From: an uncultured Prevotellaceae bacterium
GTDB taxonomy: Bacteria; Bacteroidota; Bacteroidia; Bacteroidales; Bacteroidaceae
DNA: 7,889 bases
Assembly: GCA_946644025.1 (NCBI GenBank)
Contig: CAMPCG010000129.1
Span: 1-7,889, forward strand
Direction of reading: 5' to 3'
The notes under the pieces: generated by a model
What the model saw: the letters and a program-made list of their open reading frames with translations, nothing else
Told to the model about the DNA's origin: nothing
Databases searched by the model: none
Made by a program: the position numbers and the translations under genes
In this document: positions 1-7,889 of the stretch, one piece after another
Numbering within the stretch: the first letter of the stretch is position 1
Layout of the letters: each line of letters starts with the position of its first letter

Positions 1-478
1 CGTAGGTCAGGGCCTCGAGTCCGTAGTTCTTGCGGGCCTTCTTAAACAGCGTCGGCATGGCCAGCCGACGGCCCGTGCGCTGTCCGTCGAGGTGGTACTC
101 GAAGACCTCGTTGTCGGCCTCGCCGCTGATGAAGACGGTCTCGGTGGACGGGCAGTAGCAGATGCCCTCCATGTCGCGGTTGGGCAGGCCGCTGCTGCGG
201 TAGCCCTCGTTCTCCACCTCAGCGATGCGCCCTTTCACGCTGTCGATGACGATGCGGAAGACGTAGAACCCGTCCTCGGCTGCCTTGTCGTCGACCACGG
301 CGTAGCGGTCATTGCCTATCGGGCAGATGCCGCTGTAGTTGCCGGCTGGCAGCTCGTGATGGAAACGCTGGCGCACCACGGAGGACTGTGGCCAGGCGAA
401 AAAGGGAAAAGTGGCCAAAAGGAGCAGCCAACGGCCTAAATGAGCAGTGAGAAATGGGAAATGAGAAGTTTTCGGCAA
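1..478 (-). CDS. Secreted phytase-like (esterase-like activity of phytase, PF13449-type) protein, N-terminal part
   Basis: The minus strand has an open frame of 159 codons from a proposed TTG start at 478 to the left window edge, so the C-terminal part is missing. A hydrophobic segment (about residues 17-30, WLLLLATFPFFAWP) preceded by arginine looks like a signal peptide, implying export. The body contains blocks seen in the phytase-like beta-propeller family: NRDMEGICY (about 100-108), ISGEADNEVFEYHLDGQ (about 117-133) and NYGLEALTY (about 151-159). Family members are extracytoplasmic and of poorly defined activity, possibly phosphoesterases; the substrate cannot be told. The start is uncertain. 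The frame has no ATG upstream of the hydrophobic segment and is closed by a TAA near 530, so TTG at 478 is the best non-ATG choice, and its first codons lie inside an AT-rich repeat. It is transcribed divergently from the downstream glycoside hydrolase. Family call is fairly good; start call is weak. Confidence 0.72.
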   Translation of the reverse strand, partial: MPKTSHFPFLTAHLGRWLLLLATFPFFAWPQSSVVRQRFHHELPAGNYSGICPIGNDRYAVVDDKAAEDGFYVFRIVIDSVKGRIAEVENEGYRSSGLPNRDMEGICYCPSTETVFISGEADNEVFEYHLDGQRTGRRLAMPTLFKKARKNYGLEALTY

Positions 479-511
479 GGTGATAAATTGTAAATTGGTA
501 GATTGTAAATA
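441..511. repeat. AT-rich degenerate short-period intergenic repeat
   Basis: Two runs of imperfect short units lie side by side. One is built from variants of gaaatggga/aatgagaag (about 450-470). The other is built from variants of aaattgtaaattg and agattgtaaat (about 484-511). They look like the low-complexity filler found between genes in Bacteroidales rather than a regulatory site. The run reaches into the proposed N-terminal codons of the minus-strand gene. The rest of the divergent gap (about 512-694) holds promoters on both strands and no gene that can be supported. Confidence 0.5.
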
Positions 512-558
512 TGTGTGTCTCGTCTCTTAAACTGCGATTCCATCGCAGCAATTCCGCA

Positions 559-590
559 CAAAGTTAGGCATTTGTGCCGACGTGTACAAA
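559..590 (-). promoter_or_regulatory. Bacteroidetes-type promoter for the minus-strand phytase-like gene
   Basis: Read on the minus strand, TTTG (587-590) is followed after 20 bases by TAACTTTG (559-566). This matches the Bacteroidetes primary sigma consensus of a -33 TTTG and a -7 TAnnTTTG at about the usual spacing. Transcription should start near 550-555, leaving a leader of about 75 bases before the proposed TTG start at 478. The sequence match is direct; activity is inferred. Confidence 0.6.
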
Positions 591-651
591 TTTTTATTCC
601 TTGCAAGTGTTTTTTTTAACAAAAGTAGACGGCGATTTGAAAAATAGTTTG

Positions 652-659
652 TATCTTTG
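652..659 (+). promoter_or_regulatory. -7 box (TATCTTTG) upstream of the GH3 gene
   Basis: TATCTTTG fits the Bacteroidetes -7 consensus TAnnTTTG and ends 35 bases before the ATG at 695, a normal leader length. No convincing TTTG is found 19-21 bases further upstream; the nearest TTTG (636-639) is too close. The -33 element therefore appears weak or degenerate. The short leader is AT-rich and lacks a Shine-Dalgarno sequence, as is common in this phylum. Confidence 0.5.
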
Positions 660-694
660 CCCAAAATTTGTAGTAAACCTTAATTTTAATAACA

Positions 695-2953
695 ATGAAA
701 AAACTATTTGTTTTGGCTTCGTTCGCCTTAGCAACGATGACCGCGGCCGCCCAGCAGGTGGCCAAGTATCTTGACCCGCAGGCTCCGCTTGAGGAGCGAG
801 TGAAAGACGCACTGAGCCGCATGACTGTACACGAGAAGATTCAGATGCTCCATGCGCAGAGCAAGTTTACCTCGGCCGGCGTGCCCAGGCTGGGCATACG
901 TCAGCTGAACATGGACGACGGACCTCACGGTGTTCGCGAGGAGCTGGAGTGGAACACCTGGAACCCCGCCCGCTGGACCAACGACTCCATCGTGGCCTTC
1001 CCTTCGCTCACCTGTCTGGCCGCAACGTGGAACCGCGACCTGGCCCGTAACTATGGCCACAGCGTCAGCGAGGAGTTCGCCTTCCGCGGAAAGGACATCA
1101 TGCTTGGCCCCGGCGTGAACATTGCCCGCACGCCGATGAACGGGCGTGCCTTCGAGTATATGGGCGAAGACCCCTTCCTGGCCAGCGAGATTGTAGTGCC
1201 CTACATACAGGGAGCACAGAACAACGGCGTGGCCTGCTGTCTGAAGCACTTCGTGCTGAACGACCAGGAGGTGGACCGCTTCAACGTGAACGTGAACGTC
1301 TCTGAGCGTGCCCTGCACGAAATCTACCTGGAGCCCTTCCGCCAGGCCGTGAAGCGGGCTCACGTGTGGACCATCATGGGCTCGTACAACCTGTGGAAAG
1401 GTGTCCACGCCACTCATAACGACGAGCTCATCAACGGCATACTGAAGCGCGGATGGAACTGGGACGGTGCGGTCATCAGCGACTGGGGCGGCACTACCAA
1501 TACGCAGCAGGCCGTATACGGAGGTCTGGACATCGAGATGGGAACCTATACCGACGGCAAGGTGAAGGAGTCGGAGTTCGGCTACAACGACTACTACCTG
1601 GCCGACAAGTTCGAACAGCTCGTTAAGGAGGGCAAGGTGCCCATGTCCGTGCTCGACGACAAGGCAGCCCGCGTGCTGCGCACCATCTTCCGCTCGGCCA
1701 TGAACCCGAAGAAGGTCATAGGCAAACAGTGCTCGGAAGACCACTACGACGTCTGCCGCCAGATAGGCGAGGAGGGCATCGTGCTGCTTACCAACGGTGG
1801 CGTGCTCCCGCTCGACCTCTCTAAATACAATAATATATTAGTGGTGGGCGAGAACGCTACGCGGTCGCTTACGCAGGGCGGAGGCTCCAGCGAGCTGAAG
1901 ACCCTGCGCGACATCTCGCCCCTGCAGGCACTGCAGCAAGTGGTGAAAGGCAAGGTAGAGTTTGCCCAGGGCTATGCCTCCGGACGGGCCATCTACGACC
2001 ATGTGGACAAGGTGGACCCGGCGCTGAACGAGCGTCTGAAGGCCGAGGCACTTGAAAAGGCCAAGAAGGCCGACCTCATCGTCTACATCGGCGGAATGAA
2101 CAAGAACCACCACCAGGACTGCGAGAACGGAGACCGCGAGAGCTACGACCTTTCTTTCGGACAGAACGAGCTCATCGACGCCCTCGTCAGCAGTAAACCC
2201 GCCCCTTGCAAGCTGGTCGTCGTCACCTTTGGCGGCAATCCCTTCGCCACACCCTGGCTGCAGAAGGTCGATGCCTTCGTCCACTGCTGGTACCTGGGCA
2301 GCGAGGCTGGCACCGCCCTCGCCAACGTGCTCACCGGAAAGGTCAACCCCAGCGGCAAGCTGCCCGTGACCTTCGCCAAGAGCTATAACGACTATCCCTT
2401 CGCCAGCTTCGGAGAGAGGGCCTATCCCGGACTGACCGGCATAGCAGCTCCCGCCAACAGCGCAGGAGAGGTGCCCAACCGTCAGGTGTATTACGACGAG
2501 GACATCTTCGTGGGCTACCGTGGCTTCGACAAGCTGGGCCGACAGGCTAACTTCCCCTTCGGATTCGGACTGAGCTACACCACGTTCCAATACGCAAAGC
2601 CCACCATCGAGAAAACGGCCGACGGCAGCTGGAAGGTGACCGTCAGCGTGACCAACACCGGTAGCCGTGAGGGCAAGGAGACGGTGCAGCTCTACGTGGG
2701 ACAGCAGCGCTATGCCAAGGTGACAAAGAAGCTGAATTACCAGACCGAGCGTCCCGTGAAGGAGCTGAAGGACTTTGCCAAGCTGAGCCTGAAGCCCGGA
2801 GAGACCAAGACCGCAACGTTTACCATCAATGCTGCCAAACTGGCCATCTGGGACGAGGCCACCCACCAGTGGACCACGCCCTCAGGCAAGTACAGGGCCT
2901 ACATCGGCGCCTCTTCGGCCGACATCAAGGGAACGGCAGATTTCAGCCTGTAA
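695..2953 (+). CDS. Secreted family 3 glycoside hydrolase (beta-glucosidase type)
   Basis: This complete 752-residue protein probably releases terminal beta-linked sugars from oligosaccharides in the periplasm. Residues 1-20 (MKKLFVLASFALATMTAAAQ) form a signal peptide with a likely cleavage site after the Ala run; there is no lipobox Cys. The N-terminal GH3 barrel follows, with DDGPHGVR (74-81), the KH pair in CLKHFVLNDQE (K184/H185) and the nucleophile motif VISDWGG with Asp263. The C-terminal alpha/beta domain (about 360-565) carries ENGDR (477-481); Glu477 is a candidate acid/base but not certain. NPSGKLPVTF (551-560) and FPFGFGLSYTTF (620-631) are typical GH3 landmarks. A fibronectin III-like domain (about 645-740, with GKETVQLYVG) closes the protein. 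The ATG at 695 is chosen because it begins the signal peptide. Length and domain order are standard for beta-glucosidases of this subgroup. Beta-xylosidase or another specificity cannot be excluded. The gene has no obvious functional link with the hut genes that follow. Confidence 0.92.
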   Translation: MKKLFVLASFALATMTAAAQQVAKYLDPQAPLEERVKDALSRMTVHEKIQMLHAQSKFTSAGVPRLGIRQLNMDDGPHGVREELEWNTWNPARWTNDSIVAFPSLTCLAATWNRDLARNYGHSVSEEFAFRGKDIMLGPGVNIARTPMNGRAFEYMGEDPFLASEIVVPYIQGAQNNGVACCLKHFVLNDQEVDRFNVNVNVSERALHEIYLEPFRQAVKRAHVWTIMGSYNLWKGVHATHNDELINGILKRGWNWDGAVISDWGGTTNTQQAVYGGLDIEMGTYTDGKVKESEFGYNDYYLADKFEQLVKEGKVPMSVLDDKAARVLRTIFRSAMNPKKVIGKQCSEDHYDVCRQIGEEGIVLLTNGGVLPLDLSKYNNILVVGENATRSLTQGGGSSELKTLRDISPLQALQQVVKGKVEFAQGYASGRAIYDHVDKVDPALNERLKAEALEKAKKADLIVYIGGMNKNHHQDCENGDRESYDLSFGQNELIDALVSSKPAPCKLVVVTFGGNPFATPWLQKVDAFVHCWYLGSEAGTALANVLTGKVNPSGKLPVTFAKSYNDYPFASFGERAYPGLTGIAAPANSAGEVPNRQVYYDEDIFVGYRGFDKLGRQANFPFGFGLSYTTFQYAKPTIEKTADGSWKVTVSVTNTGSREGKETVQLYVGQQRYAKVTKKLNYQTERPVKELKDFAKLSLKPGETKTATFTINAAKLAIWDEATHQWTTPSGKYRAYIGASSADIKGTADFSL

Positions 2954-2957
2954 GTAA

Positions 2958-3087
2958 GAGGCCCCTGAGGCCCCCCCTTCGGCCCCCGAGGGGAAGGCCC
3001 CCCCTTCGGCCCCCGAGGGGGCTACTATAGACTCTCCCCACAAAACTATAGTGCCCCCCTCGGGGGACGAAAGGGGGGGCTTTAGGG
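2958..3087. repeat. GC-rich palindromic repeat element, copy A (intergenic)
   Basis: An imperfect palindrome fills most of the 163-base gap between the GH3 gene and ftcD. The left arm (about 2994-3030) ends in ACTATAG. A 15-base loop (3031-3045) follows, and the right arm (3046 to about 3083) begins CTATAGT. The arms pair over about 37 bases with a few mismatches, and each contains a small inner palindrome of the CCCCCGAGGGGG type. The outer half of the left arm is duplicated in tandem with a 27-base period (units beginning at 2969 and 2996). The left edge carries GAGGCCCCTGAGG, whose complement appears as AGGGGCCTC units at the right edge of copy B. Bases 2969-3086 match 6100-6216 with about six substitutions and one single-base length change (G7 versus G6). 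As RNA it would fold into a strong hairpin and could act as a terminator or mRNA 3' stabiliser; that role is inferred. Confidence 0.85.
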
Positions 3088-3116
3088 GTTTCTATTCAAT
3101 TTAAATATCCTTTTCT

Positions 3117-4832
3117 ATGATAGCTAAAGACCAAATTGTGGAGTGCGTGCCCAACTTCAGTGAAGGGCGCGACATGAATGTTATTAAACAGATTACCAAC
3201 GCGATAGAGTCCGTAGAAGGCGTCAGCCTGCTCAACGTTGACCCCGGCGAGGCCACTAACCGCACAGTAGTGACGTTTGTGGGCTCGCCGGAGTCTGTGG
3301 TGGAGGCTGCCTTCCGGGCCACGAAGAAGGCCGGAGAGGTCATCGACATGCGCCGTCACCACGGAGCCCATCCACGCATGGGGGCCACCGACGTGCTGCC
3401 CCTCATCCCCGTCAGCGGTATCACCCTCGAGGAGTGTGCCGAGCTGGCACGCACGCTGGCCAAGCGCATTGCCGACGAGGCAGCGATTCCCTGCTACTGC
3501 TACGAGGCATCGGCCTTCCGTCCCGAACGGAAGAACCTGGCCGTCTGCCGTGCTGGAGAGTACGAGGCACTGCCCGACAAGCTTGCCGACCCCGACCGTC
3601 GCCCCGACTTCGGCGCAAGACCATTCGACGAGGGCGTGGCACGCACAGGCTGCACCGTCGTCGGAGCGCGTGACTTCCTCATCGCCGTCAACTTCAACCT
3701 CAACACCACCAGCACCCGCCGCGCCAACGCCATCGCCTTCGACGTCCGCGAGAAAGGCCGACCCAAGCGCGAAGGCAACCCCATCACCGGCCCTGTAGTG
3801 CACGATAAGGACGGCAAGCCCGTCATGATTCCCGGCACACTGAAGTGTACCAAGGCCATAGGCTGGTACATCGACGAGTATGGCATTGCCCAGGTGTCGA
3901 TGAACATGACCAACCTGAAGGTGACGCCCCTTCACGTGGCCTTCGACGAGGTGTGCCGCTGTGCCGCCGCCCGTGGCATCCGCGTCACCGGTACCGAGAT
4001 TGTGGGCCTCGTCCCCAAGCAGACGCTCATCGACGCCGGGCGCTATTTCCTGGAGAAGCAACACCGCTCTACCGGCATACCCGAGGACGACATCATCAAG
4101 ATTGCCGTCAAGTCGATGGGACTGGACGACCTCAAGCCCTTCAACCCCCGCGAGAAGGTCATCGAGTACTTGATGGAAGATAGCGAGCCGGACGATGGAC
4201 CCCAGCTGACCGCCCTCTCAGTGAAGGCTTTCGCCGAAGAGACGTCGAGAGAGAGTCCTGCCCCCGGCGGCGGCACGGTGGCAGCCTATATGGGTGCCCT
4301 CGGTGCCGCCCTCGGCACGATGGTGGCCAACCTTTCGGCCCACAAGGCGGGATGGGACGACCGCTGGCAGGAGTTCTCGCGCTGGGCCGACCACGGTCAG
4401 GCGTTCAGATGCCTGTTGCTCAGTCTTGTCGAGGCCGACACCATGGCTTTCAACGACGTGATGGCAGCCATGCAGATGCCGAAGAAGACCGAGGCCGAGC
4501 GCGCAGCCCGACAGGAGGCCATCGAGGCCGCCACGTTTCAGGCCGCCAATGTTCCCTTGCTGACCATGGACACCGCCATGCAGGTGTTCCCGCTATGCAA
4601 GGCCATGGCCGAGGAGGGCAATCCCGCCAGCGTCAGCGATGCCGGCGTCGGAGCCTTGGCCGCCCGTGCCGCCGTGCTCGGGGCGGGGCTGAACGTGAAA
4701 ATCAATGCCGCCCAGCTTGCCGACCGCGACACGGCCCAGAAACTTGTCGACGAGGCCGACGCCTTCATTGCTCAGGCCATCGAGGCCGAGAAGGAAATCA
4801 TGGAAATAGTTGAGAATAAAATAAAAGCGTAG
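3117..4832 (+). CDS. ftcD: Bifunctional glutamate formimidoyltransferase / formiminotetrahydrofolate cyclodeaminase
   Basis: This cytosolic enzyme catalyses the last steps of histidine degradation by the folate route. The N-terminal half moves the formimino group of N-formimino-glutamate to tetrahydrofolate, releasing glutamate. The C-terminal half converts formimino-THF to 5,10-methenyl-THF and ammonia. VECVPNFSEGRD (8-19) is the formiminotransferase N-terminal signature, and HHGAHPRMGATDV (81-93) holds the histidine that aligns with catalytic His82 of the mammalian enzyme (probably His81 here). The transferase spans about 1-330. A linker leads to the cyclodeaminase domain (about 365-571), with SPAPGGGTVAAYMGALGAA (380-398) and ADTMAFNDVMAAM (440-452), whose Asp441 sits where the catalytic Asp is expected. 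At 571 residues it is close to the 541 of human FTCD; many bacteria keep the two activities as separate proteins. The start is ATG at 3117 with an AT-rich, SD-free leader. No TAnnTTTG box is seen upstream. The stop is two bases before hutU, so the two are surely co-transcribed. Confidence 0.93.
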   Translation: MIAKDQIVECVPNFSEGRDMNVIKQITNAIESVEGVSLLNVDPGEATNRTVVTFVGSPESVVEAAFRATKKAGEVIDMRRHHGAHPRMGATDVLPLIPVSGITLEECAELARTLAKRIADEAAIPCYCYEASAFRPERKNLAVCRAGEYEALPDKLADPDRRPDFGARPFDEGVARTGCTVVGARDFLIAVNFNLNTTSTRRANAIAFDVREKGRPKREGNPITGPVVHDKDGKPVMIPGTLKCTKAIGWYIDEYGIAQVSMNMTNLKVTPLHVAFDEVCRCAAARGIRVTGTEIVGLVPKQTLIDAGRYFLEKQHRSTGIPEDDIIKIAVKSMGLDDLKPFNPREKVIEYLMEDSEPDDGPQLTALSVKAFAEETSRESPAPGGGTVAAYMGALGAALGTMVANLSAHKAGWDDRWQEFSRWADHGQAFRCLLLSLVEADTMAFNDVMAAMQMPKKTEAERAARQEAIEAATFQAANVPLLTMDTAMQVFPLCKAMAEEGNPASVSDAGVGALAARAAVLGAGLNVKINAAQLADRDTAQKLVDEADAFIAQAIEAEKEIMEIVENKIKA

Positions 4833-4834
4833 CC

Positions 4835-6985
4835 ATGACACAAGAAACATTCATCAGAGATATTCGTCAGGGCATACCTGACACCCTGCCCGAGGCGCAG
4901 GAATACGACCCCAACGTGAACCATGCCCCCAAGCGCAAGGACATCCTCACGCCCGAAGAGAAACGGCTGGCGCTGCGCAATGCCCTGCGCTATTTTCCCA
5001 AGCACCTTCACAGTCAGCTCGCCCCGGAGTTTGCCGAAGAGCTGAAGCAGTACGGCCGTATCTACATGTACCGTTACCGTCCTACGTATGAGATGTATGC
5101 CCGTCCCATCGACGATTATCCACATCGCTCCACGCAGGCGGCCGCCATCATGATGATGATACAGAACAACCTCGACCCTCGTGTGGCCCAGCACCCCCAC
5201 GAGCTGATTACATACGGCGGCAACGGTGCCGTGTTCCAGAACTGGGCGCAGTACCGGCTGGTGATGAAGTACCTCTCGGAGATGACCGACGAGCAGACGC
5301 TTGTCATGTATAGCGGCCATCCCCTCGGGCTGTTCCCCTCCCACCGGGATGCTCCCCGTGTGGTCGTCACCAACGGTATGGTCATCCCCAACTACTCCAA
5401 GCCCGACGACTGGGAGCGCGACAACGCACTCGGTGTCTCGCAGTACGGCCAGATGACTGCCGGCTCGTATATGTATATCGGTCCGCAGGGCATCGTCCAC
5501 GGCACCACCATCACCGTGCTCAATGCCGCCCGGCGGGTGGGTTGCTGTGATACAGCAACAAACCGGACACCGCTCTTCGTCACCGCCGGACTCGGGGGCA
5601 TGAGCGGTGCGCAACCCAAGGCCGCCAACATTGCCGGAGTGGTGAGCATCACCGCCGAGATTAACCCCAAGGCTGCTCAGAAGCGCTACGACCAAGGATG
5701 GGTGGACGAGCTGCACGACAATCTTGACGAGCTGATAGCCGCCGTGCGCAAGGCTGTTGACGAGGGGCGGGTGGTGTCGTTGGCCTACGTGGGCAACGTC
5801 GTAGACCTCTGGGAACGGCTGGCCGACGAGGATATCCGCGTCGACCTGGGCAGCGACCAGACGTCGCTCCACAATCCCTGGGCGGGCGGCTACTATCCCG
5901 TGGGCTACACCTTCGAGCAGTCGAAGTACATGATGGCCGAGGAGCCTGAACGGTTCAAGGCCGCCGTGCAGGCATCCCTTCGCCGGCAGGTGGCCGCCAT
6001 CAACCGGCTGGCCGACCGCGGCATGTACTTCTTCGACTACGGCAACGCCTTCCTCCTCGAGGCCAGTCGTGCCGGTGCAGATTTAGCCCCCAAGACTCCG
6101 GCCCCCCCTTCGGCCCCCGAGTGGAAGGCCCCCCCTTCGGCCCCCGAGGGGGCTACTATAGATTCTTCCCGCAAAACTATAGTGCCCCCCTCGGGGGGCG
6201 AAAGGGGGGCTTCAGGGGCCTCAGGGGCCTCAGGGACTTCCTTCCGCTACCCCTCCTACGTGCAGGACATCATGGGACCGATGTTCTTCGACTACGGCTT
6301 CGGCCCCTTCCGCTGGGTGTGCTCCAGCGGCGACCCCAAGGACTTGGCCGTTACCGACCGTCTGGCTGCCGAGGTGCTGGAAGACATGCTGAAGACTGCC
6401 CCCGACGACATCCACGGCCAGCTGGCCGACAACCTGCACTGGATTCGTGAGGCAGGCCGCAACCATCTCGTCGTTGGCTCACAGGCCCGCATCCTCTATG
6501 CCGACGCCGAGGGCCGCACCCGCATTGCCCTTGCCTTCAACGAGGCCATCCGCCGTGGCGAGATTTCCCGTCCGGTAGTCTTGGGCCGAGACCACCACGA
6601 CGTCTCCGGCACAGACTCGCCCTATCGTGAGACCTCAAACATCTACGACGGTTCGAACCGCTGCGCCGACATGGCCGTGCAGAACGTCATCGGCGACGCC
6701 TTCCGCGGCGCTACCTGGGTGTCGCTGCACAATGGCGGCGGAGTAGGGTGGGGCGAGGTCATCAACGGCGGCTTCGGCATGGTCATCGACGGCTCTGAAG
6801 ACTGCGACCGCCGCATACGTCAGATGCTCTTCTGGGATGTGAACAACGGCATTGCCCGCCGCTCCTGGGCCCGCAACAAAGGCTCCATGGACGCCATACG
6901 CCGCGAAATGGACCGCACCCCGCAGCTGCAGGTCACCATGCCAAACCTTGTGGACGACGACATCGTCAACGCCATCGCGTTCTGA
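4835..6985 (+). CDS. hutU: Urocanate hydratase (long UROC1-like type) with in-frame palindromic insertion
   Basis: The enzyme hydrates urocanate to 4-imidazolone-5-propionate in the cytosol using tightly bound NAD+. Recognisable blocks are ITYGGNGAVFQNWAQY (125-140), the glycine-rich NAD-contact motif TAGLGGMSGAQPKA (250-263), GSDQTSLHNPWAGGYYPVGY (339-358), FFDYGNAFLLEASRAGAD (399-416), FRYPSYVQDIMGP (470-482), FDYGFGPFRWVCSSGDP (485-501), RDHHDVSGTDSPYRETSN (585-602) and SLHNGGGVGWGEVINGGFG (630-648). It belongs to the long class (human UROC1 is 676 residues), not the roughly 557-residue Pseudomonas/Bacillus class. At 716 residues it is about 40 too long. The excess sits at about 417-469, between two conserved blocks, and is encoded by a copy of the palindromic element also found at 2958-3087. 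That stretch is rich in Pro, Ala, Gly and Ser, with a 9-residue tandem repeat (APPSAPEWK / APPSAPEGA) and a GAS triplet run, so it is probably a disordered loop. All catalytic-half motifs continue in frame after it, so the enzyme is likely functional. Confidence 0.94.
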   Translation: MTQETFIRDIRQGIPDTLPEAQEYDPNVNHAPKRKDILTPEEKRLALRNALRYFPKHLHSQLAPEFAEELKQYGRIYMYRYRPTYEMYARPIDDYPHRSTQAAAIMMMIQNNLDPRVAQHPHELITYGGNGAVFQNWAQYRLVMKYLSEMTDEQTLVMYSGHPLGLFPSHRDAPRVVVTNGMVIPNYSKPDDWERDNALGVSQYGQMTAGSYMYIGPQGIVHGTTITVLNAARRVGCCDTATNRTPLFVTAGLGGMSGAQPKAANIAGVVSITAEINPKAAQKRYDQGWVDELHDNLDELIAAVRKAVDEGRVVSLAYVGNVVDLWERLADEDIRVDLGSDQTSLHNPWAGGYYPVGYTFEQSKYMMAEEPERFKAAVQASLRRQVAAINRLADRGMYFFDYGNAFLLEASRAGADLAPKTPAPPSAPEWKAPPSAPEGATIDSSRKTIVPPSGGERGASGASGASGTSFRYPSYVQDIMGPMFFDYGFGPFRWVCSSGDPKDLAVTDRLAAEVLEDMLKTAPDDIHGQLADNLHWIREAGRNHLVVGSQARILYADAEGRTRIALAFNEAIRRGEISRPVVLGRDHHDVSGTDSPYRETSNIYDGSNRCADMAVQNVIGDAFRGATWVSLHNGGGVGWGEVINGGFGMVIDGSEDCDRRIRQMLFWDVNNGIARRSWARNKGSMDAIRREMDRTPQLQVTMPNLVDDDIVNAIAF
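6091..6239. repeat. GC-rich palindromic repeat element, copy B, inside hutU coding sequence
   Basis: The core (6100-6216) is about 94% identical to the intergenic copy at 2969-3086 and lies in the same orientation. It has the same parts: two tandem 27-base half-arm units (from 6100 and 6127), a left arm ending ACTATAG (6155-6161), a 15-base loop and a right arm starting CTATAGT (6177-6183). The right edge continues into three 9-base units (caggggcct, 6213-6239, the last one divergent) that encode Gly-Ala-Ser repeats. The outer limits are uncertain, because the uninserted ancestral sequence is not in the window and no clear target-site duplication could be identified. The element keeps the hutU frame open and encodes about residues 420-468. 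Confidence 0.85.
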
Positions 6986-6988
6986 ATT

Positions 6989-7050
6989 CCCCACGCCCAC
7001 TACAACACCCACAATACCCACAATACCCACTTCCCCCACAACACCCACTC
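6989..7050 (+). repeat. C-rich, G-free 9-base iteration between hutU and hutH
   Basis: The 75-base gap between the hutU stop and the hutH ATG is made of imperfect copies of acccacaat, with two exact units at 7007-7015 and 7016-7024 and variants such as cccccacaac and acccactc around them. No G occurs on the plus strand from 6996 to the ATG. The RNA would be unstructured and cytosine-rich, a composition like that of Rho-loading sites. The final accttaaaaa before the ATG is the A-rich start context common in Bacteroidetes and contains no Shine-Dalgarno sequence. Confidence 0.6.
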
Positions 7051-7060
7051 ACCTTAAAAA

Positions 7061-7889
7061 ATGCCTACACATTTTATTTCTTCCGACCATCTGACCATCG
7101 AGCGTATCGGCGAGATTGTCTATGGCGGCTACAAGCTTGAACTTTCAGAGGATGCGAAGCAGCGCATCCGCAAATGCAGAAACTATCTTGACAAGAAGAT
7201 AGGATATGGCAACGCGCCCATCTACGGCGTGACGACGGGCTTCGGCTCGCTGTGCAATGTCTCCATAGGCCGCGACCAGCTGTCGCAGCTGCAGGTGAAC
7301 CTCATCAAGAGCCATGCCTGCGGAACGGGCGAGCGTGTGCCCAACGACATTGTGAAGATGATGCTCTTCCTCAAGATTCAGTCACTCTCCTACGGCTACA
7401 GCGGCTGCAAGATGGACACCGTGCAGCGGCTGGTGCAGTTCTTCAACAACGATGTTTACCCCGTAGTTTACCGGCAAGGCTCTTTGGGAGCCTCGGGCGA
7501 CCTGGTGCCACTGGCTCATCTGTGCTTGCCGCTCATCGGACTGGGCGAGGTGGAGTATCAGGGCAAGACCATCAGCGGCGAGGAGCTGTGCCGCAAGAAA
7601 CGCTGGAAGCCCATCGAACTGGGTTCGAAGGAAGGTCTGGCCCTGCTCAACGGTACGCAGAACATGAGTGCCTTCGCCGTGTGGAGCCTGCTTGAGGCAC
7701 AGCGGCTGAGCGACTGGGCAGATACGATAGCAGCCATGAGTCTCGATGCCTTCGACGGCCGTATAGAACCGTTTACCCACGCCGTACATGCCGTCCGACC
7801 GCATCTCGGACAGATAGAAACGGCCAAGCGCATGAGGGAGATGCTGGAGGGCAGTCAGATCATTACTGGCATCAAAGCCCACGTGCAAG
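7061..7889 (+). CDS. hutH: Histidine ammonia-lyase, N-terminal 276 residues
   Basis: This enzyme opens the Hut pathway by removing ammonia from L-histidine to give trans-urocanate. The frame is open from ATG 7061 to the right edge, so roughly the last 220 residues of a protein normally about 500 long are outside the window. The Ala-Ser-Gly triad that cyclises to the electrophilic MIO cofactor is present at 144-146 within GSLGASGDLVPLAH (140-153). Other active-site landmarks are YGVTTGFG (55-62, Tyr55 matching the catalytic Tyr53 of the Pseudomonas enzyme), SHACGTG (84-90, His85) and LLNGTQ (196-201, Asn198). The ATG was chosen because MPTHFISSDHLTIERIGEIV is a normal HAL N-terminus and nothing upstream continues the frame sensibly. 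It follows hutU by 75 bases on the same strand and is probably in the same operon, although the C-rich spacer could reduce read-through. Phenylalanine or tyrosine lyase activity is possible in this superfamily but unlikely given the hutU and ftcD neighbours. Confidence 0.94.
   Translation, partial: MPTHFISSDHLTIERIGEIVYGGYKLELSEDAKQRIRKCRNYLDKKIGYGNAPIYGVTTGFGSLCNVSIGRDQLSQLQVNLIKSHACGTGERVPNDIVKMMLFLKIQSLSYGYSGCKMDTVQRLVQFFNNDVYPVVYRQGSLGASGDLVPLAHLCLPLIGLGEVEYQGKTISGEELCRKKRWKPIELGSKEGLALLNGTQNMSAFAVWSLLEAQRLSDWADTIAAMSLDAFDGRIEPFTHAVHAVRPHLGQIETAKRMREMLEGSQIITGIKAHVQ

Follow-up and report, generated by a model that had tools for sequence, protein, structure and literature searches.

A palindromic repeat read in frame within the urocanate hydratase gene of a Prevotellaceae bacterium, probably one of a dispersed family lying mostly inside genes

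Introduction

Palindromic elements that are translated as part of the genes they occupy have been described in Rickettsia, Wolbachia and an archaeon, and repetitive extragenic palindromes (REPs) lying within genes have been reported elsewhere (PMC2229807, PMC2996958, PMC3733652, PMC5771137; these papers, here and below, are cited for what their accessible text states). Protein-coding palindromes are known mainly from intracellular bacteria such as Rickettsia and Wolbachia, and the way they move is, according to that text, not known. The Rickettsia palindromic elements (RPE; Ogata et al. 2000, 2002) range from 105 to 146 bp and were found in 19 reading frames in their first report (PMC2229807). 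As for Prevotella and other Bacteroidota, no description of in-frame palindromic elements was found in searches of an open-access library, whose coverage leaves out most subscription papers. Here, we analyse a 7,889-nucleotide stretch of an uncultured Prevotellaceae bacterium (assembly GCA_946644025.1, contig CAMPCG010000129.1, positions 1 to 7,889), hereafter the window, in which hutU, the gene for urocanate hydratase (urocanase), contains a palindromic element, palindrome 1, without losing its reading frame. Taken as a whole, this feature is quite probably one copy of a dispersed, non-autonomous palindromic repeat, translated where it lies within genes.

Results

A sequence-only reading of the window had pointed to a palindrome in hutU resembling an intergenic copy located 3.1 kb upstream, and to some 40–50 extra residues encoded in frame by it. 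Both points were borne out. A 110-nt direct repeat (6100–6209 vs. 2969–3078) shows 95% identity between the two copies, blastn gave 94.2% over 120 nt, and in each copy the arms are 86% complementary over 37 nt. At the protein level, the loop carrying the insert counts 60 amino acids (script-defined edges) vs. 13–14 in the four nearest plain relatives, P0002–P0005, and the net gain over P0002, whose loop has 13, is 47 amino acids or 141 nt, the frame of 716 amino acids remaining open. The alignment with relatives had been chosen beforehand as the comparison on which the idea of an insertion could fail; the loops of P0002–P0005 being short and plain, the idea stood. On both sides of the insert, the HutU protein aligns with the solved urocanase 6uek (query residues 7–417 and 468–711).

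The predicted RNA folds of the two copies are very stable: -95.6 kcal/mol (z -4.6) for hutU 6086–6235 and -101 kcal/mol (z -7.8) for the intergenic 2955–3095, with none of 200 shuffles reaching the same value in either case. The upstream stop codon has its last base at 2953; the intergenic copy starts 3 nt beyond that base and ends 21 nt short of the next ATG (3117). A separate database protein, P0001, 97% identical to the window's HutU and encoded on an 8,884-base ena contig, has the same insert, shorter by 15 amino acids, and the shortfall falls in the region of the duplicated outer left arm of hutU (Table 1). Concerning structure, the AlphaFold model of the window's HutU (35 sequences) is poor, with a mean pLDDT of 58.3 and a pTM of 0.52; residues 421–467 of the insert score below 50 and have no secondary structure, a result given little weight because the same is true of much of the 126–226 region.

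The intergenic copy, used as a query, matched two of the eight genomes reached via hutU loci, so that Prevotella sp. UBA2739 (G002, locus L002) and Prevotella sp. RGIG3646 (G003, locus L003) are both carriers. Within the genus of G003, a metagenome-assembled genome, 66 of 299 sampled genomes matched the palindrome-1 family, and in an order-wide sample of 392 genomes, the sampling of which does not state the share belonging to that genus, none did, G003 itself set aside. Three rich genomes gave 75, 87 and 95 matches at E ≤ 1e-3, counted on both strands, and 40 candidates were scored in each of them. Neither phage nor plasmid records matched palindrome 1 at 1e-5, viral contigs gave no match to an exact 20-base core pattern, Rfam gave none at gathering scores, and no element was found by blastn (1e-3) in 80 hutU loci from named genome contigs.

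The copies used for counting were collected by blastn at 1e-6 in loci L081–L286 and the window: 159 merged hits, reduced to 119 by dropping identical element sequences, a step which may discard true copies at other sites. Their usual length is about 85–155 bp, with 102 of the 119 measuring at least 83 nt. Setting aside five copies under 60 nt and five near locus edges left 109 scorable ones, 89 of which lie inside an open reading frame (ORF) with at least 60 residues on either side, at about 76 sites by flank clustering (the two element halves of L268 counting as two sites, and those of L272 clustering with L283). Intervals matched in length and placed at random in these loci fell inside ORFs 72.7 times on average (sd 4.8, maximum 89, 200 draws), so that the element does not avoid genes and may have some preference for them. 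Residence within genes is the rule for the family as sampled, and the phenomenon reaches further than the sequence-only reading had supposed.

Thirty host ORFs were scanned with NCBIfam and Pfam. Domain matches flanked the element on both sides, or ran across it, in 25, although in three of these (SufS, an outer-membrane efflux protein and GH106) the second domain stretch lacks a stated position. One-sided matches were obtained for the other five, i.e. DapF, RlmN, a truncated FtsX-type ORF, a SufBD protein and an AraC-type regulator. The 25 include LigA, PolA, LeuRS, SufS, an AcrB-type pump and GH95 and, with two sites, MutS2 (both in one gene), PyrG, TrpE and an OPT transporter. Replication and repair genes are found among the hosts (L185, L221 (MutS2), L244 (LigA), L121 (PolA) and L278 (UvrD/RecB-like)).

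For 11 of the 20 scorable copies not spanned by an ORF, the start or the end lies at -10 to 15 nt relative to the stop codon of an ORF of at least 100 codons; of 2000 random intervals from these loci, likewise not spanned, 135 (7%) do so. Several other copies sit in frame close to the gene end. No clearly split gene was noticed among the 20, which were inspected by eye without a homology test for each copy.

The in-gene copies are read almost exclusively in one phase, phase A (APPSAPEGATI..KTIEAPSGAVGGAS), found in 83 of the 89, plus one unclassified A-like copy; nearly all encode a linker of the Pro/Ala/Gly/Ser type. Phase B (PPFGPRGGYYSF..) accounts for five copies, four of which form one clustered site in a family of FtsX-type permeases; the fifth call (L279) is doubtful, a long phase-A frame running there on the other strand. 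The third frame of the element meets a TAG, as seen by reading, and the reverse strand reads nearly alike (APPTAPEGASI..SIVAPSGAEGGAS) because the arms are complementary. Relative to the host gene, 64 copies are in sense, 11 in antisense and 14 in ambiguous orientation, as scored with hand-written regular expressions (an earlier scoring gave 68, 10 and 11, respectively). This sense bias has a p of 3e-10, assuming independent copies. Some neighbouring copies with alike loops that lie in genes of opposite strands are flipped along with their gene (G067 C17 72200/85806 and G253 C191 10159/23115); G253 C191 13254 is an exception.

In the FtsX-type permeases, the phase-B reading of the element (PPFGPRGGYYSF..NYSSPLGGRRGGF), the second of its open phases, stands next to a hydrophobic segment (L277:1611-1713, L249:2404-2499, L249:4828-4928 and L152:1501-1595); in L249, tandem FtsX-type paralogues both carry a phase-B palindrome.

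Loop sequences were compared as a function of distance in G253 and G067. Of the 62 copies there, 41 yielded an inner loop, and the comparison includes a pair of FtsX paralogues standing in tandem. In G253 (31 copies), loop similarity is 0.733 for copies within 5 kb vs. 0.475 for the others (permutation p 4e-4), and in G067 (10 copies) it is 0.777 within 20 kb vs. 0.403 (p 0.0014); within 5 kb, G067 offers one pair only (p 0.07). The window's own two copies, 3.1 kb apart, have a loop similarity of 0.81. Three pairs of G253 copies that share an ORF average 0.90, and the remaining pairs -0.21 (p 1e-4); L259, L268 and L272 are among the multi-copy ORFs left unparsed in this test. Overall, loops are alike in six of the seven multi-copy ORFs with at least two parsed copies, L149 being the exception, and the third copy of L243 differs somewhat from its ORF mates. 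Since nearby copies tend to share loop sequence, spreading looks local.

Orthologues at 77–91% protein identity have sites in common. Sites also change: PyrG site 1 is worn in L134, and the element that G253 carries at MutS2 site 2 is absent from three aligned orthologues. In the MutS2 of L221, the same linker as site 2 is occupied by a translated (CAACTCT)n-like repeat. In SufS (L239:1759-1875), the reading phase of the element's right half differs from that seen in the orthologue L101, and the frame is restored afterwards, as if by compensating indels within the insert.

Among the urocanases, the loop between SRAGA and RYPSYVQ was cut from 118 of the 120 listed homologues, and ranges from 13 to 66 residues. 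In a tree of 138 sequences built with FastTree after removal of the loop, the window and P0001 form one clade (support 100), which joins the plain P0002–P0005 at a support of 85. Most simply, the hutU copy would have entered the lineage leading to P0001 and the window once this had split from P0002–P0005. Palindrome-1 loops require five state changes on this tree and palindrome-2-like loops four, 47 of its 133 inner branches being drawn open and gain not being distinguishable from loss. The loop types are protein labels assigned by hand-written regular expressions; the label 'C_palindrome3?' is unsure, and P0037 and P0107, labelled plain, look palindrome-2-like. Half-elements were found in the hutU loops of G253 and G215 (that of G215 lying outside the tree), and in G259 and G003 the loop is filled by a different palindrome, palindrome 2. 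To judge from these protein and gene sequences, the urocanase loop is a recurrent insertion site.

Other repeats are also seen in this loop. The NSQLSTLNSQL-type linkers of P0013, P0014, P0016, P0030 and others look like translated (CAACTCT)n heptanucleotide repeats; at the DNA level, this repeat is seen in the MutS2 of L221 and, over a short length, in L162/L187. In P0116 (EHSPLNI), P0046 (DKLTSKQV) and P0067 (KTENGEL), tandem repeats are apparently translated, as read at the protein level only.

Palindrome 2 (TTGCGACTNAGTCGCAACA) is short and unrelated to palindrome 1. It is dispersed in three of ten genomes tested, at about 9, 10 and 19 places, and its reversed control had no match in any of the ten. 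Of 15 places away from locus edges, 13 fall in spanning frames (under a looser stop-to-stop rule), in two phases, the palindrome being read as VATESQQT or CCDSVATN. Random intervals in these loci gave a mean of 11.4 of 15, and 52 of 200 draws reached at least 13, so that the intragenic share of palindrome 2 is no more than expected by chance.

The window holds a partial cluster which we take to be of the hut type, all gene names except hutU being our own assumption from reading the ORFs: presumably, a glycosidase-like gene at 695–2953, an ftcD-like fusion at 3117–4832 and, from 7061 on, part of hutH. The coordinates of the features are given in Table 1.

Table 1. Positions of hutU, of its insert and of the intergenic copy in the window, with examples of palindrome 2 in other loci
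Feature	Position	Strand	Basis or remark
hutU, urocanate hydratase	4835..6985	+	single open frame, 716 amino acids, intact across insert; homologues
In-frame insert, better placed by reading	6083..6241	+	residues 417-469, between SRAGAD and FRYPSYVQ; codon arithmetic
Extra outer left arm copy, partial tandem duplication	6100..6126	+	repeat families; edges by reading
hutU palindrome, left arm	6128..6164	+	inverted pair
hutU palindrome, right arm	6174..6210	+	inverted pair
Intergenic copy, between glycosidase-like and ftcD-like genes (presumed names)	2956..3095	+	repeat, fold, ORF positions
Intergenic copy, left arm	2994..3030	+	inverted pair
Intergenic copy, right arm	3046..3082	+	inverted pair
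Palindrome 2, first example (from G003, G259 or G080)	L222:9888-9904
Palindrome 2, second example (from G003, G259 or G080)	L245:1003-1019
Palindrome 2, third example (from G003, G259 or G080)	L311:538-554

Discussion

The observations on palindrome 1 can be joined in a conditional scheme. Persistence within a gene would depend on a net length that is a multiple of three and on the two open frames, out of three, offered by each strand; an insert in phase would add a soluble, probably disordered linker, a peptide with little or no function of its own, and out-of-phase copies would be purged. New copies would come mainly from a neighbouring copy by local hairpin copying rather than through a REP-associated tyrosine transposase (RAYT), for instance by repair or template switching where the hairpin is single-stranded. 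Such hairpin-templated copying would fit the distance effect, and the element may be called mobile, judging by its dispersal and its presence or absence at given sites. The idea that a copy-spreading palindrome settles in genes by way of a tolerated disordered loop, put forward in the sequence-only reading, holds as regards spread beyond hutU; its disorder part met a weak test (mean pLDDT 58), and its mobility part is an inference. A more specific version, i.e. a transposase-free palindrome copied in sense orientation over a few kb from an mRNA or single-strand-hairpin template, and kept in genes since both strands read nearly the same linker, is put forward as a speculative proposal.

Several points weigh against the view of a mobile, translated family. 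No movement was seen, and no DNA-level empty site was recovered for the window; a target-site duplication is not established, the orthologous sites being too diverged to define edges. The copies were found via their likeness to the intergenic copy of the window, and two draft genomes, G253 and G067, supply 62 of the 119. Outside the 30 scanned ORFs, coding calls rest on ORF length; translation itself is deduced from open frames and conserved flanks, not from peptides, and the phase counts are drawn from copies selected for spanning ORFs. Unlike neighbours do occur, at G253 C90, C6, C25 34267 and C124 517 and at G067 C34. The sense bias could stem from selection on the peptide, because the reverse reading differs from the forward one (Thr for Ser, Glu for Val); the direction bias may come from transcription or from such selection. 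Lastly, two further points of this kind, the likeness of near loops and the frequency of transposase genes in carriers, belong to rival explanations.

Near-loop likeness may reflect gene conversion between old neighbours instead of local birth, births themselves being non-local. Alike loops are also found between adjacent genes and in copies 10–16 kb apart, and repeated half-arms suggest frequent recombination or slippage. At MutS2 site 2, however, three aligned orthologues are without the second copy of G253, so that this copy had to arise, a gain which conversion alone leaves unexplained; homogenisation as the whole account of the distance effect is conceivable, though on the improbable side. 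Another rival is that the element belongs to the REP type and owes its movement to a RAYT (Y1_Tnp). In its favour, Y1_Tnp matches are moderately commoner in carriers: 44 of 66 carriers vs. 111 of 233 non-carriers have one (odds ratio 2.2, p 0.008, uncorrected for genome size or completeness; 155 of the 299 genus genomes overall). A GTAG precedes a small stem in 61 of 100 arm instances, on one strand, and REPs within genes are already known (PMC3733652, accessible text). Yet 22 of the 66 carriers, as drafts, have no Y1_Tnp match, and among the 25 with at least 20 first-look candidates, drafts likewise, it is missing from nine and present in 16. At 1e-6, the 16 Y1_Tnp loci searched (12 from carriers) contain no copy of the element, a single weak match (L237; E 9e-5, 66 nt) lying about 1.8 kb from such a gene. 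The GTAG tag, missing from 39 of the 100 arm instances, is not invariant, and the element is longer than the 20–40 bp stated for REPs. A RAYT-driven REP is accordingly a candidate left unsupported by these searches, and an unlikely one.

Selection of the linker for solubility, partner binding or mRNA stability would agree with the prevalence of one phase and one orientation, and with the sites common to orthologues at 77–91% identity. The host genes are unrelated to one another, half-elements or worn copies occur (the hutU loops of G253 and G215, PyrG site 1 of L134), and the same linkers are occupied by other repeat types, all of which makes an adaptive linker rather improbable. Even less credit can be given to the ribosome bypassing the hairpin and leaving the insert untranslated, as reported for mitochondrial elements of Magnusiomyces (PMC6649704, accessible text): the predicted hairpins are indeed very stable, but a bypassed insert could do without an open frame and would not have to measure a multiple of three, and phase A is retained in 83 or 84 of 89 in-gene copies (spanning ORFs having been selected), with no clearly split gene noticed by eye among the 20 non-spanning ones. 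Bypassing was therefore rejected as very improbable. The same holds, with next to no probability left, for an assembly artefact placing the repeat in hutU. GC-rich repeats do break assemblies and most genomes used are drafts, but P0001 carries the insert on a separate contig at a different length, which argues against an artefact, as do the roughly 76 sites in many genomes and, for 25 of the 30 ORFs scanned, the domains on either side of the element. Ordinary drift of the linker was also considered and rejected.

A dispersed palindrome translated where genic, as preferred here, would represent a route by which unrelated proteins acquire the same segment. Gut bacteria whose genomes harbour tens of copies, mostly genic and with closely alike sisters in one gene, would allow its birth, direction and loss to be tested in culture. 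It also carries a warning for annotation, since low-complexity linkers of Prevotella enzymes can be captured repeats.

Comparison with described palindromic elements

Compared by description and not by sequence, the Prevotella-type element differs from each of the described systems in some respect (cited, as above, from the accessible text). With GTAG/CGTC REPs, the latter reported in Bacteroidetes among five phyla (PMC3733652), it shares palindromes lying in genes, DNA repair genes included, sometimes two per gene; many REP units also stand downstream of genes, their ends often providing the stop codon (PMC3733652). REPs are however units of 20–40 bp with a tag, mostly outside genes, and GTAG REPs accompany RAYTs (PMC3733652). 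By size alone, palindrome 2 is closer to REPs than palindrome 1 is.

PARCEL elements are likewise palindromic coding sequences spread among genes, but they encode amphipathic domains in tandem tracts, largely in surface or membrane proteins (PMC2996958), whereas palindrome 1 forms single inserts, in enzymes (LigA, PyrG) as well as in transporters. The palindromes of Wolbachia and Methanocaldococcus jannaschii also lie in frame in housekeeping genes, within unstructured segments, in different hosts (PMC2996958).

The RPE likeness extends to a long stem-loop, to dispersal in intergenic positions and in frame within unrelated conserved genes, and to a mover which is not known (PMC2229807). RPE families proper are those of Rickettsia, and the named carriers here are Prevotella, in another phylum, with a GC-rich element; 89 of 109 sampled copies are intragenic, at about 76 sites, vs. 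19 reading frames for the RPE (PMC2229807). A sense bias and a loop similarity varying with distance, measured for the Prevotella-type element, can be set beside the RPE description. With its imperfect long stem-loop of about 100–150 bp, its many copies per genome and its in-frame position within unrelated conserved genes, the element, as far as its sequences tell, behaves in the manner of the protein-coding palindromes described from Rickettsia and Wolbachia.

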